Shown here one piece after another: positions 1-64,000 of a DNA stretch of 64,000 nt (within the stretch, counting starts at the first letter, position 1; every line of letters begins with the position of its first letter). The DNA comes from Terrabacter sp. Root85 (GTDB taxonomy: Bacteria > Actinomycetota > Actinomycetes > Actinomycetales > Dermatophilaceae), in contig NZ_LMIW01000014.1 in NCBI RefSeq assembly GCF_001429185.1, positions 1 through 64,000 on the forward strand. The letters run 5' to 3'. The position numbers and the translations under genes were made by a program. The notes beneath the pieces are model-generated. The model was not told the origin of the DNA. It saw only the letters and a program-made list of their open reading frames with translations, and did not search any database.

Positions 1-391
1 CACGACACAACGCTCGGCATACGGGGCCTCCTCGAGGAGAACGGACACCCCAACGTAGGAGCGTCGGCGACCCCGAAGGATCACCCACATATCAAGCATG
101 ACAGCAAGAGCGCTTCCGCGTTCCGTGAGCGCACTGGGGCCGACCCGGCCCACCGGGGCACGCACGGATCCGGAAGCACCTGCCTCGGCCCGTCGCCGCC
201 CGCCGCCGGGCGACAAACGAGTCGAAGTATCCCAAACAGTTCACGGGGACGGAGGCCCCCGGACCCTCCGGGGACACGTCGGGCTGGTGGGGGCGCCGCA
301 GATCGCGCCGAACGGGGAAATGGCCCCTCAGTTTCGTTGACGCGCAACGCCGTTGGGGAAAAACTGGAGGGCACGAGGAAGGGGTTCGACG
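1..391. other. leading stretch without an assigned gene
   Basis: No gene can be supported here. On the + strand the first frame is open from base 1 to a TAG at 412-414, so the tail of a gene starting outside the window is possible, but the translation matches nothing I recognise and its third-position composition is unremarkable. The reverse strand also carries open frames that look like high-GC noise. A CGGCATAC octamer lies at 15-22. The last 20 bases hold the GAGGAAGG ribosome-binding site of the next gene. Confidence 0.4.
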
Positions 392-994
392 ATGGCGTGG
401 AATCTGACCGGTAGCTACGTGGAGACCTGTTCGTGCGAGCTCATGTGTCCGTGCAACCTCTCCCTCGATCACGGCGCAACCTACGACTTCTGTCGGGTGA
501 CCCTCGCCTTCACCATCAGGGAGGGCCAGGTCGAGGGCACTGACATCAGCGGGCGGAGGGTCGTGTTGATCGCCGACACCCCGAAGGTGATGACCCAGGG
601 CAACTGGCGGCTCGGGGTCTACGTCGATGATGACGCCAGCGATGAGCAGTTCGACCAGCTGGTCAAGGTCTTCGGCGGGCAGCTGGGTGGGCCGATCGGT
701 GCTCTGGCGCCCTTGGTGGGGGAGGTCGTGGGGGTCGAGCGCGCCGCCATCGACATCTCGGACGACGGGCTGCTGCACCGTGTGCGGGTGGGTGACTCGA
801 TCGACTTCGAGATCGAGGACATCGTCCCGTTCGGCGTCGAGACCGGAGAGCCGGTGCGTTTCCACGGAATGTTCCACCCGGTCGGTTCCGACCTGACGAT
901 GGCCGAGGCACGCCGCACCCGCATCAACGCGTTCGGGATCTCGTACGAGGGCAAGACGGGCCTGTCGACGTCCACGTTCGCCTGGGCCGCCTGA
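392..994 (+). CDS. DUF1326 domain protein, predicted metal-binding
   Basis: A 200-residue soluble protein matching DUF1326. The N-terminus carries a cysteine cluster of the form CxCxxxCPC at residues 13-21, which is typical of this family and suggests binding of a metal ion. I chose the ATG at 392 because GAGGAAGG lies about 9 bases upstream; an earlier in-frame start near 353 has no such site. The next gene (DUF2182) begins 5 bases after the stop, so the two are almost certainly co-transcribed. DUF1326 and DUF2182 genes are commonly neighbours in other bacteria, from memory, but neither has a firmly established function. The metal and the process are unknown. Confidence 0.85.
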   Translation: MAWNLTGSYVETCSCELMCPCNLSLDHGATYDFCRVTLAFTIREGQVEGTDISGRRVVLIADTPKVMTQGNWRLGVYVDDDASDEQFDQLVKVFGGQLGGPIGALAPLVGEVVGVERAAIDISDDGLLHRVRVGDSIDFEIEDIVPFGVETGEPVRFHGMFHPVGSDLTMAEARRTRINAFGISYEGKTGLSTSTFAWAA

Positions 995-999
995 CCTCG

Positions 1000-1818
1000 A
1001 TGCGCGCGCCGGCCGAGCCGGGGGGTGATGCGGGTCCGGGTCCGGCGATCGCCGCGATGCGCACGCGCGTGGGTCTGGTTGTCGCGCTCTTCGCCCTCGC
1101 CGCGCTCGGCTGGCTGCTGACTGCGCGTGAGATGCGCGGGATGGATGCCGGACCCTGGACGAGTCTCGGCAGCCTCGGCTGGTTCCTGGGCATCTGGGTG
1201 GTCATGATGGCGGCGATGATGTTGCCTTCCGTCGCACCCACGGTCGCCTTGTACTCCCGTCTCACCAGGACCAGTGCGCCGCTGTCACCCTGGATGTTCG
1301 CCGCGGGGTATCTGCTGACCTGGGCCGTCGCGGGGGTCATCGCGTACGGCATCGGGGTGATCGTCGGTGCCATCTTCGGGGATGCACTCGCGTGGGACAA
1401 CGCCGGGCGGGCCGTCGCGGGCGTCACTCTGGTGGTCGCCGCCGTGTACGAGCTCACCCCCCTCAAGGACGTGTGTCTCGGCGCGTGCCGCAGCCCTCTT
1501 GGTGCGCTTCTGGGCTCGTGGCGCGGTGGATTGAGGGGGGCCCTGAGGATGGGAGTTCGCAACGGGGCCTGGTGTGTCGGATGCTGCTGGGCCCTGATGG
1601 CTTCCCTCTTCGCGCTGGGCGTCATGAGTCTCACGTGGATGGCTCTCGTGGCGGGCATCATCGCCCTCGAGAAGCTGCTCCCGTGGCGGCGCGTCGTCAC
1701 GTACGCGACGGCCGCGCTCCTGCTGGTCCTCGGCCTGCTGCTGTTGTCCGCCCCGAATGCGCTGCCGGGACTGACCACCCCGTCGGGCATGACGATGTCG
1801 GTCGGCCTGCCTCGATGA
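1000..1818 (+). CDS. DUF2182 predicted metal-binding integral membrane protein
   Basis: A 272-residue protein with about six hydrophobic segments. The family hallmark MMAAMMLPS is at about residues 69-77. Two cysteine-bearing stretches follow, CLGACR near 159-164 and WCVGCCW near 191-197, which could hold a metal within or beside the membrane. It follows the DUF1326 gene by 5 bases without a clear ribosome-binding site, suggesting translational coupling; an internal ATG at 1057 is a possible alternative start. Inference: the pair forms a small membrane metal-handling module with a soluble partner, but the substrate cannot be read from the sequence. Confidence 0.85.
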   Translation: MRAPAEPGGDAGPGPAIAAMRTRVGLVVALFALAALGWLLTAREMRGMDAGPWTSLGSLGWFLGIWVVMMAAMMLPSVAPTVALYSRLTRTSAPLSPWMFAAGYLLTWAVAGVIAYGIGVIVGAIFGDALAWDNAGRAVAGVTLVVAAVYELTPLKDVCLGACRSPLGALLGSWRGGLRGALRMGVRNGAWCVGCCWALMASLFALGVMSLTWMALVAGIIALEKLLPWRRVVTYATAALLLVLGLLLLSAPNALPGLTTPSGMTMSVGLPR

Positions 1819-1869
1819 CGTGGGCTGACCCGGCGTAACTGCCGGGGCCGTGGCCCGCGTGGGCCGGGT

Positions 1870-2550: not shown

Positions 2551-3743
2551 GGCGTCTGCACCGCATACGGCAGCGTGGCGTGCACCCGGAACCCGCCTCC
2601 GGGCCTCGGGCCGGCCTCGAAGCTCCCGCCGTAGAGCTCCACCCGCTCCCGCATGCCCACCAGTCCCTGGCCGGCGCCCGGGGCGACGCCGACGTCCGAC
2701 GCCGGGACGTCCCCACGGCGCGGACGCCTGGCTGGTCCCTCGTCGAGCACCTCGAGGTCGACCTCCTCCTCTGAGCAGGCGATGTGGACGTGAGCGACGG
2801 GTCCGCCGTGCTTGAGGACGTTCGTCAGCGCCTCCTGCACGACGCGGTATGCCGCGAGGTCCAGGCCGGCGGGCAGGCTCGCGCCGTCGCCGGTCGAGCT
2901 CACGGTGACCCCGACACCGGTCCGGCGCGTCTCGGCCACGAGCCGTGGGATGTCGGCGAGCCCGGGCATGGGGTGCATCGCGGTCTCACCGTCCTGGCGG
3001 AGCACCCCGAGCATCCGACGCATCTCGGTGAGCGCACCACGGCTGGTCGACTCGATGACCGCCAGGGCGTCTCGAGCTGCCGTCGGGTCTGTGGCGATGA
3101 CGTGGCTCCCGACACCCGCCTGGACCGCGATCACCGACATCGAATGAGCCACGACGTCGTGCAGCTCGCGGGCGATCCGAAGCCGCTCCGCCGTCACGGC
3201 CGCGCGGTCCCGGTCCTCCCGCTCGCGCTCGAGCAGGCGGGCTCGCTCTTCGATCGCCGCCCACCGGAGGCGTCGCTGGCGCAGGTTGTCGCCGGCCAGC
3301 CACGCGACCGCTGTCGCGAGCAGGGTCGAGACGACGTCGCTCGGGGAGACCACGCCTGCGGGTTGGGCGGCGATGGCCAGACAGAAGGCCCCCACGGTCG
3401 CGCCGAGCGCCAGGAGCGAGTCGCGGCGTCGACCGTGCAGCGCGAGTCCGAACAGCAGAGCGAAGGCGCTGACCCCGGGGTAGGGGGCGTAGTGGAGCAG
3501 CGAGAAGGCCACGAGGGTCAGGAGCGTCACGGTGAGGGCGAGCCACGGGGCTCGGCGGTGCACGGCGTACGGCGCCGTCATGAGGATGCCCAGCACCCAG
3601 GCCCACGCGTCCACCGGCCGCTGCCCTGCGCGGACGGCCACGCCGAACGACAGGACGAGCAGGACGAAGAGGCCGAGCGCGACGAGAGCGTCGGCGACCC
3701 GTGGGTCCAGCCGCCGCGGGCGTCGCCGCCAACGCGTGTCCAT
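2547..3743 (-). CDS. sensor histidine kinase (HisKA_3 type)
   Basis: A 398-residue kinase. The N-terminal 150 residues hold about five to six membrane helices with no large extracellular domain, suggesting that it senses within or near the membrane. The dimerisation/H-box is ELHDVVAH with phospho-acceptor His195, and an HATPase_c domain follows, with the G-rich loop GAGQGLVGMRERV near 355-367. The start chosen is the ATG at 3743: a TACCCT -10 hexamer lies 6 bases upstream and there is no ribosome-binding site, so the mRNA is probably leaderless. It overlaps the regulator gene by 4 bases. Confidence 0.92.
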   Translation of the reverse strand: MDTRWRRRPRRLDPRVADALVALGLFVLLVLSFGVAVRAGQRPVDAWAWVLGILMTAPYAVHRRAPWLALTVTLLTLVAFSLLHYAPYPGVSAFALLFGLALHGRRRDSLLALGATVGAFCLAIAAQPAGVVSPSDVVSTLLATAVAWLAGDNLRQRRLRWAAIEERARLLEREREDRDRAAVTAERLRIARELHDVVAHSMSVIAVQAGVGSHVIATDPTAARDALAVIESTSRGALTEMRRMLGVLRQDGETAMHPMPGLADIPRLVAETRRTGVGVTVSSTGDGASLPAGLDLAAYRVVQEALTNVLKHGGPVAHVHIACSEEEVDLEVLDEGPARRPRRGDVPASDVGVAPGAGQGLVGMRERVELYGGSFEAGPRPGGGFRVHATLPYAVQTP

Positions 3744-3755: not shown

Positions 3756-3942
3756 GGGAGCGCGGGCCTCCGTGGGATCGGCTTCGGGGCGTACGCCCCG
3801 GGAGGTATGCCGTCTCGTGGGCGACCGATGACCCCACCCCCAGGCGCACGCGGAGGCTCGGCCGCACGGCCGACGACCGAGGACCCCGTGGAGCCGGATC
3901 GTTGGTCTCAGCCAAACCGGCCCGACACAGGAGCTCAGCACC

Positions 3943-6889: not shown

Positions 6890-7351
6890 ATGGTCACCAT
6901 CGGCAGTCCCAGCACCACCCGTCGGGTCGAGCGCCCCGCACGTGATGACAGGAGTGACCCCACCTACCAGGCGTATGCCGTGCTGCGCGCTGCCTTCGTC
7001 GTCGCCCCGGTCGTCTTCGGTCTCGACAAGTTCACCAACCTCCTCGTGCAGTGGGACCAGTACCTGGCCCCCGTGCTGTCCCGGCCGTTGCCGGTCACAC
7101 CGCACGAGGCGATGTATGTCGTCGGCGTCGTCGAGGTGGTGGCCGGCCTGGTCGTCGCCCTCCACCCGCGTCTCGGCGCCATCGTCGTGGCCGCGTGGCT
7201 CGGCGGCATCATCCTCAACCTGCTGCTCCTCCCCGGCTTCTACGACGTGGCCCTGCGCGACCTCGGCCTGCTGTCGGCGGCCGTCGCCCTGCAGCGGCTC
7301 GCCACGCGCTTCGACCCGCGCCCCGTGCTGTGGCCGGTCCGGCGGGGCTGA
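6890..7351 (+). CDS. DoxX-like four-helix membrane protein
   Basis: A 153-residue protein with about four membrane helices, the second half very hydrophobic (for example VVGVVEVVAGLVVAL). The length and helix pattern resemble DoxX/DUF4267-type membrane proteins, but the match is from shape rather than a diagnostic motif. The start at 6890 has a good AGGAGG site upstream. The patatin gene starts 2 bases after its stop, so the two are co-transcribed. It is divergent from the sigma/anti-sigma operon and is a plausible target of it. Confidence 0.7.
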   Translation: MVTIGSPSTTRRVERPARDDRSDPTYQAYAVLRAAFVVAPVVFGLDKFTNLLVQWDQYLAPVLSRPLPVTPHEAMYVVGVVEVVAGLVVALHPRLGAIVVAAWLGGIILNLLLLPGFYDVALRDLGLLSAAVALQRLATRFDPRPVLWPVRRG

Positions 7352-8960: not shown

Positions 8961-11084
8961 ATGTCCCGTCTCTGGACGGTGACGAGTCGCCTACCGCTGA
9001 CGAGCATTCTCGTCGTCGCCACCCTCGCGCTGTCGGTGTGGACCCGGTCCCTCTGGGACCCGCTCCTCGATCGGCCGCTGAACGACTCCGTGAGCTACGG
9101 CCTGCCCGCGTTCGAGCAGGGTTCCTGGCCCACCGTGCTGACCGGTGCCTTCTTCGCGGCGCGCCCGTTCCAGTACGTCCCGATCCTGCTGGGGCTCATC
9201 GTGTTCGGGGGCTTCGCGGAGTGGCGCCTGGGCTCGCTCCGCTACGCAGTGGCGCTCGTGTCCTGCCACGTCGTAGCCGTCCTGGGTGCCGCCGGTCTGC
9301 TGTGGCTCACCCGTGACCACGGCTACGCGTGGACGACGCACCTCGCCGCAGTGCGCGACGCGGGGCCGTCCGCCGGGTTCCTCGGCGCGGCGGCCGCAGC
9401 GTCGGTCACGCTGTCACCCCCGTGGCGTGGCCGGGTCCGGGCGTTGCTCGGCGCCTACGTCGTGCTCTTCGTCATCCACATGGGCGCACTCGCGGACCTC
9501 GAGCACGTGCTGGGGGTGGGTTTCGGCCTGCTCCTCGGACCGACTCTCATGGGCCGCGCGCCGTTGCTCACCTTCCGCCACCTGACGCGACGAGACTTCC
9601 GCCTGCTCGCGTCCGGCTTCTTCGTCATCGCCGCGGTCGAGGTCGCGCTACGCCCCTTCACCACCGCGGACGGCCCGTTCGCGGTCACCCTGAGCCCGGA
9701 GGCCCGGGCCGCGGAGCTCGCCGACACGGACGTACTGCTCGGCGTCCTCCAGATCGTCCTCTGGCTGTGGCTCGCCCGGTCGCTCTACAAGGGCCGGCGA
9801 CTGGCCTGGCGCTGGGCCGTGGGGCTCCTGCTCGTCGTCATGGTCATCCAGGTCCTGAACCTCGGCTACATGATCGCGGTGGGTGAGCAGGGACTCCTCG
9901 CTGCCGGCTGGGAGCTCTTCGGCAACGGGCTCGGCCTGTCCGTGTGCCTCGTGGGCCGCCATGCGTTCCGCAACCCGTCGCCCCGCCGCGCTCGCCGCAC
10001 CAGCGGCAGCATCGTCGCTCCCGCCGACGACGACCAGCGCTCACGGGCCACGCAGCTGCTGCGGCAGCAGGGCACGGTCAACCGTCTCGCGTGGATGACG
10101 ACCTGGCCGGAGAACCGCTGGTTCACGCCGGCCTCCGTGTCGGGATACGTCGCGTACCGCGTGCACGCCGGCGTCGCGGTCGGGCTGTGTGACCCCGTGG
10201 CCTCGGCCGAGGAGGACCGGTCCATGCTGCTCGGCGCCTTCGCGAACGCCGTGCACGCCCAGGGATTGGTGCCGTGCCTCTTCACCGTGACGGGAGAGGC
10301 CTCTCGACATGCGCGAGCGCAGGGATGGCACTCCCTCCAGGTGGCGGAAGAGGCCTGGGTCGACCTGCCCACGCTGGACTTCGTCGGCAAGGCATGGCAG
10401 GACGTGCGCACCGCCCTGAACCAGGCGGCCAAGCTCGGCATCGGCTTCCGGATCGGCCCACTCAAGGACATGCCACGCGGCATACAGATGCAGGTCAAGG
10501 CGATCTCGTCCGAATGGGTCGAGGACAAGGGGCTGCCCGAGATGGGCTTCACCCTCGGTGGCGTGGATGAAGCCCTCGACCCTCACGTCCGAGTCGGCCT
10601 GGCCATCGACGGTGACGCCACGGTCCACGGGGTCACGTCGTGGATGCCGTTCCACGCGAGCGGGGGTGGGGACCCCGCCGGCTGGACGCTGGACGTCATG
10701 CGGCGCCTGCCCGGAGGCTTCCGCTACTCCATGGAGTTCCTCATCGCCTCGGCCTGTCTCACCTTCAAGGAGGAGGGCTGCGCCCTCGTCTCCCTCTCGG
10801 GTGCCCCGTTGGCCCGGACCCGGCCCTCTGCGGGTGACGAGTCCTTGGACCGGGGCACGCTCGACGTCTTCCTCGACCGACTCGGCGAGTCCCTGGAGCC
10901 GTACTACGGCTTCAGGTCCTTGCATGCCTTCAAGTCGAAGTTCCAACCGAGGCACGAACCGCTCTATCTCGTCTTCCCGGACGAGGCCGCGCTCCCGCGC
11001 ATCGGGCTGGCCCTGAGCCGCGCGTACCTGCCGGATGCCGGGATGCGAGACCTCGTGGCCCTGGCCCGTTCGGGGCGGCAGTGA
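8961..11084 (+). CDS. MprF-like membrane protein with DUF2156 lysyltransferase-type domain
   Basis: A 707-residue protein. Residues 1-350 hold about nine membrane helices, the first group arranged like the rhomboid-like N-terminus seen in actinobacterial relatives (FFAARPFQYV, then GGFAEWRLG). Residues 370-700 form the soluble DUF2156 domain that in MprF/LysX transfers lysine (or alanine) from tRNA to phosphatidylglycerol. Typical elements are GYVAYRVH, LNQAAKLG and FKSKFQPRHEPLYL near the end. Expected result: less negative membrane charge and tolerance to cationic peptides. A GAAGG site precedes the ATG. No lysyl-tRNA synthetase domain is fused. Confidence 0.88.
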   Translation: MSRLWTVTSRLPLTSILVVATLALSVWTRSLWDPLLDRPLNDSVSYGLPAFEQGSWPTVLTGAFFAARPFQYVPILLGLIVFGGFAEWRLGSLRYAVALVSCHVVAVLGAAGLLWLTRDHGYAWTTHLAAVRDAGPSAGFLGAAAAASVTLSPPWRGRVRALLGAYVVLFVIHMGALADLEHVLGVGFGLLLGPTLMGRAPLLTFRHLTRRDFRLLASGFFVIAAVEVALRPFTTADGPFAVTLSPEARAAELADTDVLLGVLQIVLWLWLARSLYKGRRLAWRWAVGLLLVVMVIQVLNLGYMIAVGEQGLLAAGWELFGNGLGLSVCLVGRHAFRNPSPRRARRTSGSIVAPADDDQRSRATQLLRQQGTVNRLAWMTTWPENRWFTPASVSGYVAYRVHAGVAVGLCDPVASAEEDRSMLLGAFANAVHAQGLVPCLFTVTGEASRHARAQGWHSLQVAEEAWVDLPTLDFVGKAWQDVRTALNQAAKLGIGFRIGPLKDMPRGIQMQVKAISSEWVEDKGLPEMGFTLGGVDEALDPHVRVGLAIDGDATVHGVTSWMPFHASGGGDPAGWTLDVMRRLPGGFRYSMEFLIASACLTFKEEGCALVSLSGAPLARTRPSAGDESLDRGTLDVFLDRLGESLEPYYGFRSLHAFKSKFQPRHEPLYLVFPDEAALPRIGLALSRAYLPDAGMRDLVALARSGRQ

Positions 11085-13056: not shown

Positions 13057-13358
13057 GGTGCACCCCCTTCGGGTCGTGCGTGGACCGTCTGTCCACGCGT
13101 GCCTCGTCTGGATCAACGTTCAAGTGAACATGAAGATTCCGTCGAGGTGATGACTGGTTTCTACCCGCCCAACGCGCGGGCCAACCGTGCGGTTCCATCG
13201 GCTGGGACGGTGCCGGGACGACCGGGGATGACAGGTGGGCGACCGCGTGGGTGCAGGACGACGTGGCCGTATGCCGTCACCTCGGGGTGGCGGCATACGG
13301 CTGGGTCGTCAGGCGGTTGGCAGTGGTGCGGGTGGGGCGGATGGAGCGGATGGGGCGG
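13057..13358. other. 302-bp intergenic region with promoter palindrome and terminator
   Basis: No coding sequence is evident. It contains the palindrome GTTCAAGTGAAC at 13118-13129, a plausible operator upstream of the hexapeptide-repeat gene, and the terminator hairpin at 13266-13301 that ends the fused regulator gene. Confidence 0.5.
13266..13301 (-). terminator. hairpin terminator built from two inverted GTATGCCG octamers
   Basis: A 16-bp stem with one G-T wobble and a 4-base loop TCGG. Each arm contains one copy of the dispersed octamer (13269-13276 and 13291-13298). It lies downstream of the minus-strand gene that stops at 13359. Confidence 0.75.
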
Positions 13359-15443: not shown

Positions 15444-15493
15444 CGTGCGTCCCCTCGACGGGGAGCGGGGTCCGAGCAACATCGCCGGCGGCA

Positions 15494-15499
15494 TACGGT
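15494..15499 (+). promoter_or_regulatory. -10 element, leaderless aldo/keto reductase transcript
   Basis: TACGGT is 6 bases upstream of the ATG at 15506 with no ribosome-binding site. It overlaps a CGGCATAC octamer at 15489-15496. Confidence 0.5.
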
Positions 15500-16538: not shown

Positions 16539-16582
16539 ACGTATGCCGCCCAGCCGGGTTCGCGAGGCTGGGCGGCACACGT
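16539..16582 (+). terminator. bidirectional hairpin between convergent genes
   Basis: A 17-bp stem with a single mismatch and a 10-base loop, lying between the stops at 16516 (+) and 16605 (-). The left arm contains GTATGCCG at 16541-16548; in the right arm the motif is degenerate (CGGCACAC). Confidence 0.75.
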
Positions 16583-30367: not shown

Positions 30368-30408
30368 GGGCCACACGGCATACGGCCTCGTGAGAGGCGA
30401 CGAAGGCG

Positions 30409-34867: not shown

Positions 34868-34901
34868 CCGCCGGGCCGGGTCGCTCGACCCGGCTCGGCG
34901 G
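34868..34901 (+). terminator. hairpin terminator after the subtilase
   Basis: A 16-bp stem with one mismatch (CCGCCGGGCCGGGTCG and its complement) and a very short loop, 14 bases after the stop. CGGCATAC at 34899-34906 overlaps its 3' edge. Confidence 0.75.
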
Positions 34902-34925
34902 CATACGCCATCGGGGACGCCTGCC

Positions 34926-47578: not shown

Positions 47579-48811
47579 ATGACCATCGAGCTGGCCCCGA
47601 TCCCCGAGCACGGACGCTCGGGTCCGGTCCGGCTGTCCCGGGAGACCCGAGCGGCTCTCGTCGCGGCGGCGGGGGAGCGGCTCGTCATCCACGCGACCGC
47701 CGACCCCGACGTCGTCACGATCGGTGCGACGAGCTGGGTCGGGGCGCTCGCCGTGCCCGGCCTCGTCGTGCGCGTCACGCCGAAGGTGTCGGTCACGAAC
47801 TTCTTCGCGATGCTCGGCGCGGGCGTCTCGCCCGACGCGTTCGACCACGAGCACGTGACGTGGAGCGACACCGACGAGCTCATCGACGGCGTCGCGTACT
47901 TCGCGATCCGGCTCATCGACTCGTCGACGATGCGCGGTCTCGTGCACGGCTACGTCCCGCGCGAGGAGCGGATGCGGACCATCCGGGGGCGGCTGCTCGT
48001 CGAGGAGTTCGCGCGCCGGCCGTGGAGCGCTGCCGAGCCGCAGTGCCGCTTCGACGACTTCACGGCCGACATCGTCGAGAACCAGCTCTTCCGCTGCACC
48101 CTGCAGGCGATGCTGTCGTGGCCCCAGCTCGCGCCGCACGTCCGCCGAGAGGCCCTGCGCGTGCTCGGCCGCTTCGACGGCGTCGCCGACACCCCGGCGA
48201 CGAGGCACGCGGCACCGCTGCCCATCACGCGGCTCAACGAGCACTACGAGGACGCGATGCGGCTCAGTCGCCTTGTCCTGCAAGCGATGTCGCTGAGCCA
48301 CGAAGCCGGTGACCAGCAGGCCAACAGCCTCATGGTCGACATGGACGACCTCTTCCAGCGCTGGATCGCCCAGGAGCTGGACCTGCGCCTCGCCCCGCAG
48401 ATGCGCATCGAGCGCGACGAGGACGTCTGGCTCGACGAGGGCCGGGCCGTCACGATGGCCCCCGACCTCGTCGTGCGCCGCGGCAGCGAGGTCGTCCTCG
48501 TCGGCGACGCGAAGTACTCGATGGGCGCCGACGGCTACATGGCCTCGCGCGACTACCTCGAGCTCGTCGCCTACACGACGGCCATGGGCCTGCCGACGGG
48601 CCTGCTCATCCACTGCAACAGCGACCGAGCGCCGGAGTCGGAGATCGTCATCCGCAACGCGGGCACGCGGATCCTCTGCCGTCCGATCCGTCTCGACGGG
48701 TCGTATGCCGCCGTGTGCCGTTCGCTCGACGCGCTCGCTGAGCTGGTGCGCGAGCTCGCTGACGCCCCAGGGGAGCTCGAGGTCCCCACCCTCATCCGCT
48801 CGCGCCGCTGA
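47579..48811 (+). CDS. mcrC: McrC-like nuclease of a type IV restriction system
   Basis: A 410-residue protein. The N-terminal part (about 40-120) is the beta-rich McrB-binding region; the C-terminal part holds a PD-(D/E)xK nuclease core, with Asp in MAPDLVV near 294 and D-x-K in VGDAKYS near 308-314. It forms a complex with McrB that cleaves modified DNA. It follows mcrB by 19 bases. The catalytic residues are all present, so the system looks intact. Confidence 0.85.
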   Translation: MTIELAPIPEHGRSGPVRLSRETRAALVAAAGERLVIHATADPDVVTIGATSWVGALAVPGLVVRVTPKVSVTNFFAMLGAGVSPDAFDHEHVTWSDTDELIDGVAYFAIRLIDSSTMRGLVHGYVPREERMRTIRGRLLVEEFARRPWSAAEPQCRFDDFTADIVENQLFRCTLQAMLSWPQLAPHVRREALRVLGRFDGVADTPATRHAAPLPITRLNEHYEDAMRLSRLVLQAMSLSHEAGDQQANSLMVDMDDLFQRWIAQELDLRLAPQMRIERDEDVWLDEGRAVTMAPDLVVRRGSEVVLVGDAKYSMGADGYMASRDYLELVAYTTAMGLPTGLLIHCNSDRAPESEIVIRNAGTRILCRPIRLDGSYAAVCRSLDALAELVRELADAPGELEVPTLIRSRR

Positions 48812-49712: not shown

Positions 49713-49751
49713 ACGTATGCCGCCCGGCCGAGGCGGCCGGACGGCATACGT
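49713..49751. terminator. bidirectional hairpin made of two inverted CGTATGCCG nonamers
   Basis: A 17-bp stem with one mismatch and a 5-base loop between convergent genes. Both arms carry the complete nonamer (49714-49722 and 49742-49750). Confidence 0.8.
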
Positions 49752-52700: not shown

Positions 52701-53796
52701 CGAGGCGGTCGGACAGGTCGCCGTCGCCGTTGGGGTCAGCCGCCCAGTCGAGCGCCTCCCCGACGACGTTGGTCGAGCCGTCGCAGCCGAAGACCTTGAG
52801 GGCGTAGAGGCTCGCCTCGGGGGCGACGCCGGGGCCGATGTCGAGGCTGGCCGGGTCGATGTCCGACGCGTAGCCACCGGACCACGTCGTGCCGTCGGAC
52901 GCGACGCCGAGACCGGCGGTCGTGCCCGCGACGTGCGAGCCGTGGCCGTTGCAGTCGAGCGGGTTGGGGTCGGGCTGCGGGTTCGGGTCGTAGGTGTCCG
53001 AGGTCGGGTCGGCATTGTAGGCGTCGCCCGCGAAGTCGTAGCCGCCGACGACCTTGGCGGTCGGCGTGAAGGTGTTGGAGGCGCCGGCCGCGGTGAATGC
53101 GTCGACCGTGCCGGGGCCGTCGAAGTCGGCGTGGGTGTAGTCGATGCCGGTGTCGATGATGCCGACGCGGACGCCCTTGCCCGTCTGCGACAGCGCCTTC
53201 CACACCTTCGGCGCGCCGATGAGCGGCACGGAGGAGGAGTTGGTCGGTGCCTTGGGCGTCAGTCGGTGGATCGCCTTGACGCCGGGGATGCCCGCGAGGG
53301 CGGTGAGCTTCGCGGCGTCCGTGCGAACCGCGATGCCGGCGTATGCCGCGTGCACCTTGTAGAGCGTCCGTGCCTTCGTCGCCGTGGCGGCGAAACGGGA
53401 CTCGACGCCCTTCTGGGCTGCCTTGACCGCCGAGGTCTGGGTGCGCGCCGCGCTCTTGGCGGCAGCGAGGCCGCGCCCGCGGGCCTGACCGAACGCCGTC
53501 GTCGCGGGTGCGGCGTCGAGCTCGATCATGACGTCGACGGGGCCGGTGGCCTTGCGCAGGCCGGCGTCCACCTTGTCGCCCGCGGCCACGCGCTGCGTGC
53601 CGAGGCCGAGGGAGCCGGCGCTCGTGACACCATCGGGAACCGAGGCGTTGCTGCGGTGCTTGACGGACGGGTCAGGGCTCGCCGACACCGGCGTGGCCCC
53701 GAGGGTGGTGGCGGCCAGGGCCGCGATGGCTCCTGCACTCACCGAGCTCATCACGCCACGGCGCGAGCGCCATGGTCCCCGAGTGTTGTCGGACAA
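49777..53796 (-). CDS. very large secreted subtilase with PA and Ig-like domains
   Basis: A 1339-residue S8 protease. A signal peptide (cleaved near SA-SP, residue 50) is followed by an I9-like propeptide. The catalytic Asp is in IDTGIDYTHAD near 195, His in NGHGSHVAGT near 265 and Ser in GTSMASPHVAG near 645. A PA-domain insert lies between His and Ser (about 440-560). A long beta region follows, and then two bacterial Ig-like domains at the C-terminus (about 1160-1250 and 1255-1339). The start chosen is TTG at 53796, 5-6 bases after a perfect AAGGAGG; an ATG at 53820 lacks such a site. Confidence 0.88.
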   Translation of the reverse strand: MSDNTRGPWRSRRGVMSSVSAGAIAALAATTLGATPVSASPDPSVKHRSNASVPDGVTSAGSLGLGTQRVAAGDKVDAGLRKATGPVDVMIELDAAPATTAFGQARGRGLAAAKSAARTQTSAVKAAQKGVESRFAATATKARTLYKVHAAYAGIAVRTDAAKLTALAGIPGVKAIHRLTPKAPTNSSSVPLIGAPKVWKALSQTGKGVRVGIIDTGIDYTHADFDGPGTVDAFTAAGASNTFTPTAKVVGGYDFAGDAYNADPTSDTYDPNPQPDPNPLDCNGHGSHVAGTTAGLGVASDGTTWSGGYASDIDPASLDIGPGVAPEASLYALKVFGCDGSTNVVGEALDWAADPNGDGDLSDRLDVVNMSLGSSYGSPQDPDAVAANNLAALGTVVVASMGNSGDVYEVGGSPGNAPRVLAVAASDDGNDVVDGLKVDSPAGIEPADTVDGTQDNVFAALKSVAYDWTAEPGVTNVPVVTVGDWSQDPNAGNNTDGCWPYSLADQAKVTGKVVLQMWLDGTGRRCGSAARAQLAQDAGAVGVIYGSDVNAFSAGVTGDADIPAMLTVNQATVAIKAQLDASNEVRVTMTNDLRNGVSIRNPKAIDQLAGFSSRGVGVAGGVKPDVAAPGVTTFSAAVGTGNEGIAESGTSMASPHVAGEAALVRGSHPTWTVEEVKASIMNTATQDVFVGPDHTGDVYGPERVGAGRVVADAAVGTSTLAYVTDDKGAVSVSFGPVAVTAPTQTLTKTVRIVNKRPVTSAAYVLSYDAAHPTPGVTYSFSPSQVRVPGNGSVDVLVTATFTRSALRAVADPTTVADPLEIGIQRSYRADASGRMLLEPVQGTSGGTLRVPVWSAPRAASTMSSPSSTTVTKQSGLPAGIATSMLPLTGTAIDQGTDTTSYVSTVSTFELQGTSPRRADCSSTRVVDCNATADDRGADLRYVGAATDAPVFGLATSMLTFGINTHGPWRTPATSTEFDVFLDTNADGTADAAVYNTRLSTTDDYDYFVAELVDLRPGAGFGDVLDQELVNGVDGSFDTNVFNSDSLVMPVSVEVLQNAGLVTGAAPKVRYWVSSLAQGSAVDAVGSAAKPMTISLASPGLSAYGDFGTLLNSDLPGEKLEVRRDEASAAVDKPQGLLLLHHLNTDGSRAKVVTVRTTSTTKLTASPSSYTYGGHSTLTATVSPSTATGTVTFILSGKVVRTVSLSGGKAVLPLSSSLGRGAHAFTARYNGDAKLAGSTSASAVVTVKGLSSRTSLSSSSSAYRYGGRPVLTATLSPSSATGTVTFRDGSRVLGTSTVSKGKATLWAPVLSRGTHSVKATYNGSGAYVPSTSTAVTLRVS

Positions 53797-53972
53797 CGGA
53801 TCCTCCTTGCGTGGCTCCATTCGCCCGCGATGCGCCTGCGCACCGCGTGCGCAGGGACGCTCGCCCCCGAACTTGCCTGCCACGCCGGATGCAACCTATC
53901 CCCGTTCGAGCCGTTCCGGCGCGTTCCGGGCAAACTGATTCGCGGGGTGTCGAGGGTGTCGGTGCCGGACGG

Positions 53973-53978
53973 CATACT
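53973..53978 (+). promoter_or_regulatory. -10 element, leaderless helicase-nuclease transcript
   Basis: CATACT is 7 bases upstream of the ATG at 53986; it is part of a CGGCATAC octamer at 53970-53977. No ribosome-binding site precedes the ATG. Confidence 0.4.
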
Positions 53979-53985: not shown

Positions 53986-56900
53986 ATGCAGCGCATCGAC
54001 GGTCACCTCGTCCTGAGCCCCACGGACCTGACGAAGCACGTGGCCTGTGCGCACATCACGACGCTCGACCTCGAGGCTCTCGACGCCCGCCCCGGGACGA
54101 GTGCCGGGACCAGCCGCAGGGCGAGCGGCGCCGACGACTCGCTCAACCTCGTCTTCGCCAAGGGGCTCGAGCACGAGCGCGCCTATCTCGAGCGTCTCGT
54201 CGCCGAGGGGCGCGTCGTCGAGGACATCGCGGCCCTTGGGGTGCGGGGTGTCGAGGCCGAGGCGGCGACGCTCGACGCCATGCGCCGGGGTGTCGACGTC
54301 ATCTACCAGGCGACGTTCTTCGACGGGCACTGGGTGGGGCTCGCCGACTTCCTGCTGCGCGTCGACGAGCCGAGCGACCTCGGCCCGTGGCGCTACGACA
54401 TCGCCGACACCAAGCTGGCGCGGCGGCTCAAGGTCCCAGCGCTGCTCCAGATGGCGACGTATGCCGCCCGGCTCGAGCTGCTCCAGGGCGTCCCGCCGCA
54501 GTGGCTGACCGTCGTCACCGGCGACACCGAGTCGCACCCGTGGCGGCTCGTCGACGTGGCCCCCTACGCCCGCCGTCGGCGCGCCGAGCTGCTCGACGCC
54601 ATCGCCAACCCGCGCGAGACGGAGTCCGCGCGCGTCCAGCACTGCGGTCAGTGCCGGTGGAAGGAGCGGTGTGCGCAGGAGTGGCTCGACCGCGACGACC
54701 TCATCCAGGTCGCGGGCATGCGCGCCGACCACCGCGCCGCGCTCATCGACCTCGGCATCCCGACGCTTCGTTCGCTGGCCGAGTCCAGCGAGGAGCGGCT
54801 GGCCCCGGCCCTGTCCATCGCGACCCGGCGTCGGTTGCTCCAGCAGGCCAGGCTCCAGCTCGCCGAGCGCGAGACCGGGCGGGCGCAGTTCGAGCTCCTC
54901 GACCCCGAGCCGGCCCGGGGGCTGCAGATGCTGCCCGAGCCCGACGAGGGCGACGTCTACCTCGACTTCGAGGGCGACCCGTGGGCCGAGGGCGGTACGG
55001 GGCGCGAGTACCTCGCGGGCATCTGGACGCGGCAAGGGGAGTTCGTCGAGTTCTGGGCGCACGACTTCGCCGAGGAGGGGCGCCTGACGACCGACCTCGT
55101 CGACTGGCTGACGGAGCGGTGGCAGCGCTTTCCCGACCTCCACGTCTACCACTACGCGCCCTACGAGACGACGGCTCTCAAGAGGCTCGTCGGCCAGCAC
55201 GCGACGCGCGAGGCCGAGCTCGACCAGCTGTTGCGCCACGAGGTCTTCGTCGACCTCTACGCCGTCGTGCGCCAGGGCGTGCGCATCAGCAAGGGCTCCT
55301 ACTCCATCAAGAAGCTCGAGGAGTTCTACTGGGGCCACACGCGATCCGCCGACGGCGCGGGTGTCGCCGACGGTCTCTCGTCCGTCGTCGAATACGAACG
55401 CTGGCTCGCCGGTCGCGACGACGGGTCGGCCGACCAGGCGATCCTCGACGACATCCGGCGCTACAACGAGGAGGACGTCCGCTCGACGCTGGCGCTGCAC
55501 GAGTGGCTCGAGGAGCGACGCGCCGAGCTCGCACGCGCGGGGCACACGCTGGGCCGGCCGGTGCCCGAGCCGCTGCGCGAGGTCAGCGACGAGGAGCGTG
55601 CCGAGATCGCGCTCTCCGAGCGCCTGGTCGCCGACGGCCACCTGCTCCTCGCCGGACTCGTCGGGTGGCACCGGCGCGAGAAGCGCCCGGAGTGGTGGGA
55701 CTTCTTCCGCTACAAGGAGCTCGAGACGGCCGAGCTCGTCGAGGACGGCACCGCCATCGGCGACCTCGGTGAGCCCGAGGAGATGCGGGTCGTCAAGCTC
55801 TCCAAGGTCTGGCGGTACCCCTTTCCGCCCCAGGACTGCAAGGTGTCGGTCGGCAAGTACGTCCCCGACGTCGACACCCACGCACCGGTCGGCAAGGTCG
55901 TCGACCTCGACCCGGTCGAGGGCTGGGTCGAGCTGTCGATGAAGAAGTCGCTGGAGCCGCCACGTCCGCGCGGCCTCGGGGGACCCGGACCGGTCATGGA
56001 CCAGGCGCTCCGGGCGAGCATCGCCCGCACCGGCGAGCTCGCGCTGGCCGGTGGGTCCAACCTCGCGACGCGGCTCGTCGAGCGGGTCGTCCCGGCCGCC
56101 GACCTGCTCGCGCCCCTTGCCGGAGAGTCGCCCAAGGACGTCGTCGTCCGCGTCGGTCGCGGCTTGCGCGGCGAGATCCTGGCCGTCCAGGGGCCCCCCG
56201 GCACCGGCAAGACGTATGCCGGGTCGGCGCTTATCCGCGAGCTGCTCGACGCCGGCCTGCGCGTCGGCGTCACCGCGCAGTCTCATGCGGTCGTGCTCAA
56301 CCTCCTCGACGAGGTGGCCCGTCCTGCCTGGCACAAGGACGGCACCAACGTCGAGGAAGGCGACGAGCCGGACGACCCGAACGCCCTCATCCGCCACACG
56401 TCCGACAACGCCGCCATCGCGGCTGCGCTCGCGAGCGGAGAGGCGACCCTCGTCGGGGGCACCGCCTGGCTGTGGTCGCGCGACGACATGGTCGATGCCG
56501 TCGACGTGCTCGTCATCGACGAGGCCGGCCAGTTCTCGCTCGCCAACGCCGTGGCCGTGGCCCCGGCCGCGCGCTCGCTCGTCCTGCTCGGAGACCCGCA
56601 ACAGCTGACCCAGCCGACCAAGGCGGTCCATCCCTACGGCTCCGGTGTCTCTGCGCTCGACCACCTCCGCGCCGGTGACGACGGGCTCGTCCACGACGTC
56701 ATCCCTGCCGAGCGCGGTGTCTTCCTCGACCGCACGCACCGGATGCACCCGAGCCTGACGGCGTTCGTGTCGGAGCTCGCCTACGAGGGCCGGCTCGAAT
56801 CGGCGCCGGGGCGCGAGCAGCTCCGCGTCGAGGCGCCCGGCGCCCTGTCGGGTGAGGGGCTGCGCTGGGCTCCCGTCGAGCACGACACGCTGTGCGAACA

Positions 56901-57897: not shown

Positions 57898-59343
57898 TCA
57901 GGCGCCGTGGGCGGCGACGTCCCAGAGCCGTCCCTCCCCGCGGATGCCCGGCAAGGCCTCCCGGATCGACCGCTCGGCGAGCTCGGGAGCGACACCGAGG
58001 TCGACGGCATACCGCAGCGCCACCGCCGGGGTGCGCTGGACGCCCTGACGGCAGTGCACGAGCACCCGCTTGCCCTCGGCGCGGAACTGTCGCAGTGCCG
58101 ACGAGGCGTCGTCGAGGACGAAGTCGAGGTGAGGGTTGCTCTCCTCCTGCTCCTCGTCGTTGATCCAGAACTCGATGTGGTCGCGTGCCGTCATGCCGGC
58201 GGCGGGGATGTCGTCCAGGCCGAGCGCGCACAGGGAGACGATCGCCTGCACGTCGAGCTCGGGCACGCGTCCGAGGTCAGTGATGGTGCCCAGCACGATG
58301 TCGGGGTCGATGGGGTGCGGGATGCCCAGTGTCGGGATCCGCGCGTCGCCCATCGAGGCGACCGACGGCCACTCGCCGACACGACGTCCGCCTTCCGAGG
58401 TCGAGACGGCGAGCTCGACGAGGTCGTGGGCGCGCAGCCCCGGCCACCCGTGCACCATGCGCCGCCACTGGGTCGGCACCGCCGACGCGCCGTAGCGGGC
58501 GCCGAGCAGCGAGCCCGCGATGGCGGCGACGGTGTCGGTGTCGTGTCCCGCCCGGACGGCAGCCTGCAGCCCCCGCTGGAGGTGCATCGCCGAGCCGTCG
58601 CCGCGGTCGGTCGTCGTGATCGCGGCCCAGGCGTCCTGCAGCGCCGTCACGGTGAAGCCGTTGTTGCCGAACTGCCCCGGCTCGGCGCCGGTCGCCGCCT
58701 CGATCCAGTCGCCCCAGCGTCCGACGTGCGGCGCGCTCACGAGGTCGAGACCGGCCGCGAGGTCGAGACGCCCCTCGGTGACGGCGACCCGGATCGCCTC
58801 CGACCACAGCACCGCCGAGTCACCGGCGAGCGGGTCGGCGTGGGTGAGCAGGGCGATGGCTCGGGCGGCGCGGGCCGTCGCGTCGCGGTCGTCGAGGGCC
58901 GACAGGCCGACGATGGGGGTCCGCATCAGCGCGCCGTTGCCGGCGGTCAGCCCGGTGCGGGCGTGCAGTGCCTCGCTCGCCCGGGTCAGGCGTTCGTGCG
59001 AGCGTCCGGTCAGCTCCTTCGCCTCCGTCAGCACCGAGCGCGTCTGGATGCCGACGTCCGTGGCGCCGCCGTCGAGCCAGGCCGTGAAGGCATCGGCGAC
59101 GCCGTCGAGGCCCTCGGGCGAGGTGAGGTCGATGCCCTGGGCGGCGATGCGCGCCACACAGAGCGTCATCTGGGTGTCATCGCTCCATTCGCCGGGCTCG
59201 TACGGCCCGAGGCCACCACCCTTCATGACCGCCTCGCCGACCGGGGGCGCCGCCATCTCGTACGGCACGCCGAGTGCGTCGCCGCAGGCCTCGCCGAGCA
59301 GCACCCCCGCCGCGCGGTCGACGGCGATGGGGCGGATCGACAC
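57898..59343 (-). CDS. ADP-ribosylglycohydrolase fused to a cysteine phosphatase domain
   Basis: A 481-residue protein. Residues 1-315 are a DraG/ARH-type hydrolase with the metal ligands SDDT at 54-57 and GHDTDT at 266-271. Residues 335-481 resemble a dual-specificity/protein-tyrosine phosphatase: the P-loop HCRQGVQRT has Cys431 and Arg437 (C-x5-R), and an Asp-rich region precedes it. The start is GTG at 59343 with GGAGGAG 7 bases upstream. The fusion suggests that the protein removes ADP-ribose and phosphate from the same or related substrates. Confidence 0.85.
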   Translation of the reverse strand: MSIRPIAVDRAAGVLLGEACGDALGVPYEMAAPPVGEAVMKGGGLGPYEPGEWSDDTQMTLCVARIAAQGIDLTSPEGLDGVADAFTAWLDGGATDVGIQTRSVLTEAKELTGRSHERLTRASEALHARTGLTAGNGALMRTPIVGLSALDDRDATARAARAIALLTHADPLAGDSAVLWSEAIRVAVTEGRLDLAAGLDLVSAPHVGRWGDWIEAATGAEPGQFGNNGFTVTALQDAWAAITTTDRGDGSAMHLQRGLQAAVRAGHDTDTVAAIAGSLLGARYGASAVPTQWRRMVHGWPGLRAHDLVELAVSTSEGGRRVGEWPSVASMGDARIPTLGIPHPIDPDIVLGTITDLGRVPELDVQAIVSLCALGLDDIPAAGMTARDHIEFWINDEEQEESNPHLDFVLDDASSALRQFRAEGKRVLVHCRQGVQRTPAVALRYAVDLGVAPELAERSIREALPGIRGEGRLWDVAAHGA

Positions 59344-60353: not shown

Positions 60354-60360
60354 TGCGGCC

Positions 60361-61637: not shown

Positions 61638-62615
61638 TCAGCGTCGCTGGATGTCGAAGTACGGGCTGACGTAGCAGGTGGCATAGCCCTGCCCCTGCTG
61701 CGCCGTGACGACGATCCCGTCGACGAGCGCCCGGCACGACACGGCGCCGCGGACCCCTGACCCCGTCGGGTCGCTCGTGCGCACCCGGAGGCTGAAGTAG
61801 TCGTTGCTCGTCGCGCCCGGTCTGACCGGCACCTCGAAGGCGAGGGGCGCGGTCTGCGCGGGGTAGTCGTAGCGCTGGTGCGTCGCGTCCGAGAGGGACA
61901 CCTCGATGCGGGCGCCCTTCTCGGCATACGCCTCGAAGCGGATCGTCCGCGCGTCCGCGGGAACGGGCGTCACGGGAACGGCCGGCACGGGGATGAGCGT
62001 GGGGGGAGAGGTCATGACGCCTCGGGTCGGGGTGGTCGCCTTCGCGGTCGCGCCGGGGGCCGACCGGGTCGGGCTGGCGCCGGGAACCAGGGGCGTGATC
62101 GTCGGGACCGGGAACGTCCTCGTCACGACGGGACGGTTGCGGGTGACGCTGACGGCGGGTCGGGCGACCGGGTCGAAATCGTCGACGGAGCTCATGGCCG
62201 CCCAGAAGCCGAGCGGGACGAGCATCCCGACGAGGATCGCCACGACGTGCCAGGCCTGGAGACGCCCGCCGAGCGAGCGTCCCGCGGCGCCGGGAAGGGT
62301 GACGGTGCGCAGCCGCTCGGTCATCGGCGGGGAGGCGGGTGCGGGAGGAGGCGGTGGCATCGGTGCGGGGTCCGCCCCCAACTTCTGCGGCACCCAGCTC
62401 GTCGCCGGCGGCCGCTCGAGGCCGAAGGTCGTGTCGTATGCCGTCACGTCCTGAGGCGTCCCGGTCGCCGTGGGCAGATCGGCCGGGTCAGCCGAACCGG
62501 CCGGGTCGAGACCGCGGGCACTCGTCGACCCGTCACGCGGGTCGGTCGGATCGGGGCCGACATCTCCCGTCGTGTCGCGGGTCGGGTCGGGCTCGAACGG
62601 CGGATTCTCAGACAC
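61638..62615 (-). CDS. proline-rich single-pass membrane protein, paralogue 1
   Basis: A 325-residue protein: about 120 residues of disordered Pro/Asp/Thr-rich cytosolic segment, one membrane helix (WHVVAILVGMLVPLGFWAA near 121-139), a Pro/Thr linker, and an extracellular beta domain with two cysteines (GAVSCRALVDG and YATCYVSPYFD). GTG start with GAGGGGA upstream; TAGATT at 62648-62653 is a likely -10. The architecture matches the next gene (62680-63486), so they are paralogues. The outer domain recalls MmpS-like proteins. Confidence 0.72.
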   Translation of the reverse strand: MSENPPFEPDPTRDTTGDVGPDPTDPRDGSTSARGLDPAGSADPADLPTATGTPQDVTAYDTTFGLERPPATSWVPQKLGADPAPMPPPPPAPASPPMTERLRTVTLPGAAGRSLGGRLQAWHVVAILVGMLVPLGFWAAMSSVDDFDPVARPAVSVTRNRPVVTRTFPVPTITPLVPGASPTRSAPGATAKATTPTRGVMTSPPTLIPVPAVPVTPVPADARTIRFEAYAEKGARIEVSLSDATHQRYDYPAQTAPLAFEVPVRPGATSNDYFSLRVRTSDPTGSGVRGAVSCRALVDGIVVTAQQGQGYATCYVSPYFDIQRR

Positions 62616-62647
62616 GGGGTCCCCTCGTCTCGTGCGTGCGGCTGCCC

Positions 62648-62653
62648 AATCTA
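62648..62653 (-). promoter_or_regulatory. -10 element of paralogue 1
   Basis: TAGATT on the minus strand, giving a leader of about 30 bases before the GTG at 62615. Confidence 0.4.
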
Positions 62654-62679
62654 GTGCGGCCGACCATCCCTGACCTCGG

Positions 62680-63486
62680 TCACAGGGAGGGGCTGCAGAC
62701 GACTTGGTGGTCCGACGTGTCGACGGCCACGAGCTGTCGGCCGGCGTAGACACGGCACTGGATCGTGCCCGGCCCGGTAAGGACCGTCGCCGTGACCTGC
62801 AGCTCGGACGGCCGGCTGTCGAGCGTGACCTTGGCGGCGTACGGGCCGAGCCCCTGGTGCCCGTCCAGGACGACACCGCCCCAGGTGATGTCGACGCCGG
62901 CGACGAGCCCCGCGCTGGGCGAGCTCGGCGTCGACACCACCTCGACGGTCAGCGAGGTGGCGTCCGCCGGCACCGGGGACACGTCCGGGGTCCCCCCGAG
63001 CAACGGGGCAAAGGCCGTCGAGGCGGTGACGTCACGGGCATGGACGCCGATCACGGATCCCGGGGCGTCACTGCTCCCGTCGGTCGTGCCGTCGAGCGTC
63101 CCGTCCATCGTGCTGTCGCAGTCGGGGATGCCGGGTTCCGCTCCGATGTCGGAGGTCCAGCACTCGTAGCTCTCGGTCGCGTCGTCGTGGTTCGAGAGAC
63201 CGAGGAGCAGGGGCGGGATGAGGAAGAAGGCGGCCCATCCCGGCAGTCGTCGCCGGGGCGGTTGCCGGACCGGCGGGGTGGTGAGGACCGGCGGCACCGG
63301 GGCCTGCCACGAGGACGGCGTCGCTGACTCCGGAGCGGGGGCGGACGACCGAGGCGCCCACGCGTCCGGGGGCAGGGACGGTCCCGACGTGGCGGGGTCA
63401 GCGCTGGACACGTCGCCCGGGAAGGAGACGTGCCGGTCCCGCTGGGGGTCCGGGAGGGCCGGGCGCGGGTGGTCGGGGTCGGACAA
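62680..63486 (-). CDS. proline-rich single-pass membrane protein, paralogue 2
   Basis: A 268-residue protein with the same plan as its neighbour: a disordered Pro-rich N-terminus beginning MSDPDHP, one short helix (GWAAFFLIPPLLLGL near 83-97) and an extracellular domain ending in a Cys-containing strand (TIQCRVYAGRQLVAV) and VVCSPSL. The start is TTG at 63486 with GAGG upstream. Function unknown; surface protein by inference. Confidence 0.7.
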   Translation of the reverse strand: MSDPDHPRPALPDPQRDRHVSFPGDVSSADPATSGPSLPPDAWAPRSSAPAPESATPSSWQAPVPPVLTTPPVRQPPRRRLPGWAAFFLIPPLLLGLSNHDDATESYECWTSDIGAEPGIPDCDSTMDGTLDGTTDGSSDAPGSVIGVHARDVTASTAFAPLLGGTPDVSPVPADATSLTVEVVSTPSSPSAGLVAGVDITWGGVVLDGHQGLGPYAAKVTLDSRPSELQVTATVLTGPGTIQCRVYAGRQLVAVDTSDHQVVCSPSL

Positions 63487-63693
63487 CGATGCCTCGCTTC
63501 AGACGGGTGGGACCACGGTAGGTCCTCGGGTGCCTCAGTCGTCGCACCTCTGACCGTCCCCGGCCTCGGCGCGTTCCGTGCGGCTGCCGGGTCCCGAGCC
63601 GGGAGGCTGACGGCGCAGGCTCAGCGGACGCCGCTCCGCGTCCGGTCGTTCACCGCGGCATCGACGGCCGGGGTCACCCCAGCTCGGTGGCGG

Positions 63694-64000
63694 TCAGTCG
63701 GCGCCGGGCCTCCAGCCACCGACCCGGATCTCGGTGCCGTCGACGATGTCGACGGGTGAGGTGGGGTCCAGCGGCACGGCCGCCGGTGACGACCCGTCGC
63801 TCACGACGATCGTCATCGACGCGGTCTGCTCGACGCCGGCGGCGGCGAGGTCGCCCCGCCACCCGAGGTCGAGGTGGGCGACGTCACCGGGATCGAGGGG
63901 CACCGTCTGCGCACTCGAGGTCTCCGCGTCGTGCAGGCGACCGCGAGGGTTGGCGAACACGGTCCCGGAGGGGCCGCGAGCGGACACCACGGCATACCCG
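63694..64000 (-). CDS. C-terminal part of a DUF4232-like extracellular protein
   Basis: The gene is cut by the window edge. The visible 101 codons form beta strands with the DUF4232-type pattern (GYAVVSARGPSG, then TVPLDPGDVAHLDLGWRG, then a final Val/Ile strand). The frame is open to base 64000, and the start lies beyond it. It lies upstream, on the same strand, of the two proline-rich single-pass genes and may belong to the same set of surface proteins. Confidence 0.65.
   Translation of the reverse strand, partial: GYAVVSARGPSGTVFANPRGRLHDAETSSAQTVPLDPGDVAHLDLGWRGDLAAAGVEQTASMTIVVSDGSSPAAVPLDPTSPVDIVDGTEIRVGGWRPGAD

Follow-up and report, generated by a model that had tools for sequence, protein, structure and literature searches.

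What is the purpose of an octamer that recurs throughout 64,000 nucleotides of the Terrabacter sp. Root85 genome (contig NZ_LMIW01000014.1; this whole stretch is called the window here), within genes and between them and in both orientations? A sequence-only reading of the window had suggested that the word, GTATGCCG (in the other orientation CGGCATAC), behaves like a chromosome-wide, uptake-like signal, and had named methylation, regulatory and segregation motifs as alternatives. Our analysis supports this suggestion by a genome-wide and synonymous-site excess of the word, by its inverted pairs between genes and by its strand balance, and further by its under-dispersed spacing, its positional conservation and its dialects in related genera. 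In our judgement, GTATGCCG probably serves as a DNA uptake signal in monoderm Actinomycetota that belong to a naturally competent lineage.

Abundance and placement of the word

An exact recount of the window returned the 32 copies (18 GTATGCCG and 14 CGGCATAC) of the sequence-only reading at the same coordinates, and the same 23 of them extend to CGTATGCCG. Dinucleotide-preserving shuffles of the window had a mean of 0.82 copies and a maximum of 3, and none of 100 shuffles reached 32. Moreover, no other octamer of the window exceeds its expectation from a trinucleotide Markov model as strongly as GTATGCCG does (32 versus 1.0). The whole genome (4,865,335 bases in 15 contigs) carries 2300 copies, 1168 forward and 1132 reverse, or about one per 2 kb, compared to 237 copies (112 + 125) of a control, the word read backwards. 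In a 464-kb sample consisting of two blocks of contig 1 (400 kb) and the window, to which the following results of this section refer, we counted 224 copies versus 13.2 expected under a tetranucleotide Markov model. The word thereby ranks second by z-score, behind the octamer TATGCCGT (123 versus 3.2, same model) which overlaps it, and its wider consensus in this genome reads G-N-C-GTATGCCG-[T/C]-C-N-N-G. Among one-base variants of CGTATGCCG, tabulated for the first five of its nine positions, position -1 is loosely constrained and most variants within the octamer are about as frequent as expected, while the variant CGGATGCCG lies about twofold above expectation (37 versus 17.5).

The sequence-only reading had proposed counting octamers against a codon-aware null model and looking for the word in non-coding DNA elsewhere in the genome. 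The first was done by shuffling synonymous codons across the sample (50 shuffles; codon pairs not preserved), with genes taken from our own simple codon-usage caller, and gave a large excess: the 417 called genes contain 102 copies in sense orientation versus 5.3 (sd 2.4) and 53 in antisense orientation versus 2.5 (sd 1.6), together 155 versus 7.8 or about 20-fold. Codon usage alone is therefore ruled out as the cause, within the limit that the shuffle does not preserve codon pairs. The cost to the genes is visible in their codons, since 17 of the 21 ATA codons in the sampled genes lie inside the word. Furthermore, in the context G|TAY|GCC|G tyrosine is encoded by TAT in 92 of 120 cases, compared to 13 of 69 where the preceding base is not G. 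As to the second point, the word is enriched in non-coding DNA rather than absent from it: 64 of the 224 copies are intergenic (11% of bases are intergenic; p 5e-13), and five more lie at gene edges.

Intergenic copies form ten inverted pairs in the sample. The two pairs of the window, which the sequence-only reading had singled out at 13269/13291 and 49715/49742, are stable hairpins according to folding predictions (-42.1 kcal/mol, z -7.2, and -39.8 kcal/mol, z -5.5, respectively), while the third pair that was folded, outside the window, reached a z-score of only -1.9. After merging of close pairs, the copies are spaced more evenly than expected by chance, with a variance-to-mean ratio of 0.51 in 4-kb bins (p 2.5e-6) and of 0.42-0.76 in 2-, 5- and 8-kb bins (p 4e-5 to 0.002).

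Conservation and dialects in the family

Alignment of the window with syntenic DNA from seven congeners revealed that the word is maintained at fixed sites. It is intact at 125 of 150 aligned sites, and per genome at 71 to 100% of sites versus 29-63% of neighbouring octamers, a control not matched for codon constraint. Between genes, 46 of 50 aligned sites are intact versus 21-49% of intergenic octamers. In the reverse comparison, the window carries the word at 124 of 151 aligned sites of the congeners.

Among 396 genomes of the host order (own genome included), enrichment of GTATGCCG is confined to the host family. None of the 362 order genomes outside the family is enriched, the highest count there being 180 copies in a genome which also has 195 copies of the control word, while enriched family members reach 3277 copies in the same search; outside the order, the comparison covered loci of about 22 kb. 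Within the family, represented by 186 genomes counting our own, many genera are enriched in the word and others show it at background level. A tally by hand with loose thresholds gave 136 word-bearing, 46 word-free and four ambiguous genomes (G409 and G396-G398), and 35 word-bearing, 16 word-free and two ambiguous genera out of 53; one genome, G455 (83% complete), was tallied as word-free in spite of 100 copies versus 31. Word-free members also occur inside word-rich genera, namely G400 with 37 copies (1251-1660 in its four congeners), G490 with 50, and G462 with 19 (3681 and 1062 in its congeners).

The word differs between genera of the family: some bear GTATGCCG, some an octamer one base away from it, some the unrelated octamer CCCCTTCG, and some none of these. 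CCCCTTCG is enriched in all 16 genomes of genus g9 and all three of g5, with 1198-3180 copies versus about 80-400 elsewhere. In one genome from each of these genera it shows the same hallmarks as GTATGCCG, with 17 coding copies versus 2.8 and 27 versus 7.4 when synonymous codons are shuffled, an intergenic location of 13 of 30 and 14 of 41 copies, and three and one inverted pairs, respectively. GGATGCCG is enriched in g114 (2/2 genomes), g146 (one genome) and g119 (4/4), with 2099-4480 copies, which have to be read against a high background (1040 versus 443 in our own genome), and two g119 species bear GTATGCCG and GGATGCCG together. GTATGCGG is enriched in all four genomes of g117 (511-1204 copies); its reversed control is inflated by the flank of GTATGCCG. 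Moreover, the flanks around a constant GTATGCCG core vary by genus in ten sampled genomes.

We placed the words on a tree of ComEC proteins that has 46 rows and was built by a short search, with stars on 24 of its 42 inner branches; three taxa in it, I. flavum, Flexivirga and Allobranchiibius, were scored from about 22 kb each. GTATGCCG occurs across the family, CCCCTTCG forms a single nested clade adjoining a GTATGCCG genus, and GGATGCCG appears in two separate places; presence and absence of the word require eight changes, two ambiguous rows being left out. When word-free genera were screened for words of their own, over 40-156 kb each, none emerged as clearly as those above. The screen relied on our own gene caller, which left 97-99% of the sequence non-coding in three lower-GC genomes and 27 and 38% in two more. 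Candidate words are GGTCTACG in G400 (52 versus 10.4) and, in two g11 genomes, GGATGCCG, which exceeds its control there about fourfold. As a separate observation, most of 16 copies in a g10 genome (G213, L107 and L108) share the longer context CC-GTATGCCG-CTGgGC, possibly as a dialect of greater length, possibly as part of a dispersed repeat.

Competence machinery and the Tad-B locus

The genome encodes both ComEA and ComEC. A ComEA protein with SLBB and helix-hairpin-helix domains adjoins a ComEC with Competence and beta-lactamase-like domains. This ComEC shares 92% identity with its counterparts in Terrabacter sp. Ter38 and Terracoccus sp. 273MFTsu3.1, which places the strain in Terrabacter or very close to it. 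Of 84 ComEC loci, 83 have a ComEA match, and many of these loci belong to word-free and unrelated actinobacteria. The type IVa pilus marker PilM (PF11104) had no match in our own genome and matched in seven of 186 family genomes, and we rejected a classical type IVa pilus as the uptake machine of this strain because PilM is unmatched in it. Tad-type membrane proteins (T2SSF) are present in 37 of 37 genomes tested. One of the Tad loci, here called Tad-B, encodes TadA-TadB-TadC together with a small Flp-like protein, for which no Pfam match passed the cut-off, and TadE/TadG-like pilins, one of which is a sub-threshold match. In 27 Tad-B loci the pilins went unrecognised by pattern in eight, including our own (where they lie beyond an insert), G537, G539, G542, G368, G413 and G462, and only some were recognised in partial loci of the G422 type.

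The Tad-B ATPase was searched in all 186 family genomes, of which 24 were re-examined with every match shown. It is lacking in six of 16 word-free genera versus none of 35 word-bearing genera (Fisher p 4e-4; a hand tally without the ambiguous genomes, uncorrected for phylogeny). In g15, g116, g120, g129, g130 and g137 only distant paralogues (30-43% identity) or none were found, and no word is enriched there.

These data are consistent with the following scenario. A surface part of a Tad/Flp competence pilus, or ComEA, would prefer DNA that bears the word, and such DNA would enter through ComEC and recombine. By this uptake-biased recombination, the word would accumulate where it is cheapest: at synonymous positions, in intergenic DNA and in hairpin stems at gene ends. 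A change in receptor specificity would slowly replace the word of a genome and give rise to dialects between genera, and loss of competence would lead to its erosion. The distribution, conservation and dialects of the word and the ComEA, ComEC and Tad loci are observations, whereas we infer that the word is bound, that uptake is biased, which component acts as the receptor, and that the lineage is or once was competent. With some reserve, we also favour a fuller version of this scenario, in which the system read by the Tad/Flp pilus or ComEA changed its specificity repeatedly in this one family and on one of these occasions adopted an unrelated octamer, the genera are sexually isolated by their own words, and serine-recombinase elements in pilus genes are selfish DNA that shuts the system down.

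Several observations weigh against an uptake system of this kind. ComEC was present in 40 of 40 genomes tested, word-bearing and word-free. Since ComEC and ComEA are near-universal, neither predicts the word, and Tad presence is equally rejected as a simple predictor because Tad-B also occurs in most word-free genera. The Tad-B ATPase is kept in ten of these (for example, in all 12 g11 genomes) and in the word-free G400, G490 and G462; pilin genes are present in G400 and G490, and none were found beside the ATPase in G462. Conversely, Tad-B is broken or fragmentary in the word-rich Root85, G537, G539, G542 and G066, and also in the word-rich G257, G499, G496, G505, G122, G224 and G443, where, as in G066, some of the breaks may be assembly breaks. 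The ATPase was not seen in two incomplete word-bearing genomes, G477 (73%) and G545 (68%). The word can thus persist at present without an intact locus. Moreover, no receptor gene tracking the word was found, and an insert in the Tad-B locus of G542, which belongs to another genus, is not clearly depleted of its own word (12 copies versus 17.5).

In Root85 itself, tadC is split by a 10,168-base insert compared to an intact relative (L269), along whose sequence the homology ends at position 3816 and is taken up again at 3807. The element (L070:10134-18001 and L288:1-2301, contig C13) carries a gene for a 529-aa serine recombinase near its right end, and TadE- and Tad-type genes follow beyond it. 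It contains no copy of the word, whereas 4.8 would be expected at genome density (P 0.008). In G542, tadC is interrupted at the same place, and two further Terrabacter genomes, G537 and G539, have one common breakpoint in tadA. Pooled over Root85, G537 and G539, inserted DNA carries two copies versus 11.7 expected, all DNA from the breakpoint to the end of the retrieved stretch being counted as inserted in the latter two. An interruption of a competence gene by transposable elements has been described in a fish pathogen (PMC12955456, as excerpted). Provided that Tad-B serves as the uptake pilus, Root85 would probably have lost competence recently while its words persist.

Beside the Tad-B ATPase, and divergent from it, lies a gene (L070:2705-7057) for an EssC-like protein of 1450 aa, which is of the FtsK/SpoIIIE type and has an FHA domain; homologues of it are found at the Tad-B loci of G400, G438 and G500.

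Known dispersed words and other explanations

Uptake signals are known from Pasteurellaceae and Neisseriaceae, according to the available part of PMC7811141, which also describes, for Haemophilus influenzae, how DNA is sequenced once it has been taken up and retrieved. In the open literature, as far as it was covered, we found no report of an uptake signal in Actinomycetota. To our knowledge, these two families are the only ones with such signals. If the uptake interpretation is true, GTATGCCG would represent a third system, in monoderm bacteria with another pilus type, and self-recognition in transformation would have evolved independently. The family would then supply four natural words, together with sister species that are word-free, as a means of tracing the receptor, and the purpose of uptake specificity would become testable in an unrelated system. 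Natural competence, present or past, would be predicted for about 35 of its genera, and harmless members could be transformed in the laboratory with word-tagged DNA.

The closest resemblance is to the DNA uptake sequence (DUS) of Neisseriaceae, which in the accessible text of PMC3630211 and PMC6370729 is likewise a family-restricted, genome-wide word with genic copies, intergenic inverted pairs, dialects and word-free genomes; the former describes the inverted pairs as terminator-associated. In contrast, the hosts here are monoderm Actinomycetota with Tad/Flp pili and, in our own genome, without a PilM-type match. The CTG core is absent from the consensus GnC-GTATGCCG-YC and from CCCCTTCG. Furthermore, CCCCTTCG is unrelated to the other words of the family, whereas DUS dialects, as far as those sources go, all share CTG. 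Because the consensus has no CTG core and our own genome gave no match to the type IVa pilus marker, we do not regard GTATGCCG as a member of the DUS family, although it would be DUS-like in its working. The string ATGCCGTC, which we take to be common to this word and the 12-mer AT-DUS, is probably shared by coincidence; in the excerpts of PMC6370729, GCCGTCTGAA is given for the neisserial DUS. Like the uptake signal sequence (USS) of Pasteurellaceae, GTATGCCG is a short word dispersed on both genome strands, but the word and the machinery are different. The USS has AT-rich flanks, which were not seen around GTATGCCG in the consensus of the 464-kb sample. With regard to machinery, the nearest parallel is Micrococcus luteus, an actinobacterium with comEA/comEC and two tad loci, both of which natural transformation needs (PMC4322843, in part); judged by gene order alone, Tad-B and a third Tad type in our genomes may correspond to its tad-1 and tad-2. 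The main text of that paper, to the extent accessible, does not contain the term 'uptake sequence'.

A dispersed word with some function other than uptake, kept in place by methylation, repair or mutation bias, is in our view an unlikely alternative. The precedent is the highly iterated palindrome HIP1, an octamer of high frequency in cyanobacterial genomes which has been discussed together with orphan methyltransferases (PMC4390886, excerpted text). GTATGCCG is similarly frequent and dispersed, and the failure of machinery presence to predict it would fit this alternative. However, HIP1 is palindromic and GTATGCCG is not its own reverse complement. Moreover, mutation bias alone does not predict inverted pairs at gene ends, even spacing, conservation at fixed sites or the appearance of an unrelated octamer in a nested clade.

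We consider it very unlikely that GTATGCCG is a recombination signal of the Chi type or, like the FtsK-orienting polar sequences (KOPS), guides a DNA translocase in segregation. Its size and density, a non-palindromic octamer about once per 2 kb, do resemble Chi. However, Chi and KOPS are strongly polarised with replication, whereas the two strands are balanced here, both genome-wide (p 0.47) and in sampled 50-kb blocks (largest skew 15 to 8). This balance disfavours such polarity and led us to reject a Chi or KOPS identity, for which the inverted pairs would also be unexpected.

Still less probable is that the word marks a site of methylation or restriction. Enzyme specificities do include non-palindromic words like this one, but a restriction site gives no cause for the 10- to 20-fold enrichment at synonymous sites, the pairing in hairpins or the even spacing. 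It is just as improbable that the word is a transcriptional, terminator or nucleoid-protein site, because most copies are single, genic (155 of 224 in the 464-kb sample) and in both orientations, which argues against a regulatory identity even though inverted pairs form hairpins and intergenic density is higher between convergent and tandem genes (1.66 and 1.45 copies per kb) than between divergent ones (0.84; p 0.03).

Copies in the window

The individual copies are exact matches, with their context taken from our own simple gene caller (Table 1). The sequence-only reading had pointed to unusual codons within the word, and the codon use holds, with some changes in detail. Its TAT-GCC list was incomplete, since 11 copies inside called genes are read in this way, and one of its members, 6973, does not lie within a called gene. 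Five of its GCA-TAC sites are confirmed, and the sixth, 62436, falls between genes in our calls. The rare ATA codon at 10478 is likewise confirmed, although it is not the only case, as a second site was found at 53970. An excess of intergenic copies was observed in the same direction as before, with 13 of 32 copies and a non-coding share of 13% by our caller compared to the earlier 12 copies and about a tenth.

Table 1. Positions, strands and sequence context of the GTATGCCG copies in the 64,000-nucleotide window.
Position	Strand	Context
15..22	-	intergenic
2847..2854	+	in gene, frame GCG-GCA-TAC
3805..3812	+	intergenic, divergent genes
6973..6980	+	edge of called gene
10478..10485	-	in gene, GGC-ATA (rare Ile codon)
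13269..13276	+	left arm, intergenic inverted pair 13269/13291
13291..13298	-	right arm, intergenic inverted pair 13269/13291
15489..15496	-	intergenic
16541..16548	+	intergenic, convergent genes
23716..23723	-	in gene, GCA-TAC
26113..26120	+	in gene, TAT-GCC
27479..27486	+	in gene, TAT-GCC
28695..28702	+	in gene, TAT-GCC
30376..30383	-	intergenic by own gene caller
32566..32573	+	intergenic
34899..34906	-	intergenic, 3' of a stop
35421..35428	+	in gene, TAT-GCC
38586..38593	+	in gene, GCA-TAC
44341..44348	-	in gene, TAT-GCC
45179..45186	-	in gene, GCA-TAC
45357..45364	+	in gene, TAT-GCC
48703..48710	+	in gene, TAT-GCC
49715..49722	+	left arm, inverted pair 49715/49742, convergent genes
49742..49749	-	right arm, inverted pair 49715/49742, convergent genes
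53341..53348	+	in gene, GCA-TAC
53970..53977	-	in gene, GGC-ATA (rare Ile codon)
54459..54466	+	in gene, TAT-GCC
56214..56221	+	in gene, TAT-GCC
58005..58012	-	in gene, TAT-GCC
61922..61929	-	in gene, TAT-GCC
62436..62443	+	intergenic by own gene caller (sequence-only reading: GCA-TAC)
63990..63997	-	intergenic

Outside the window, the longest word-free stretch in the 400-kb sample of contig 1 spans 10.3 kb (C1:172771-183041, corresponding to L047:12771-20000 and L048:1-3041; GC 0.669) and comprises 18 called genes, all on one strand. We do not claim that it is a prophage, as a scan of ten of its proteins against PHROGs left seven unmatched and gave weak matches for the other three, in one case to kinases. 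In G034, a series of GGGAGTGCTTCC-type repeats starts at L097:11773, with 56 hits mostly spaced by 61 bp, and resembles an array of clustered regularly interspaced short palindromic repeats (CRISPR).

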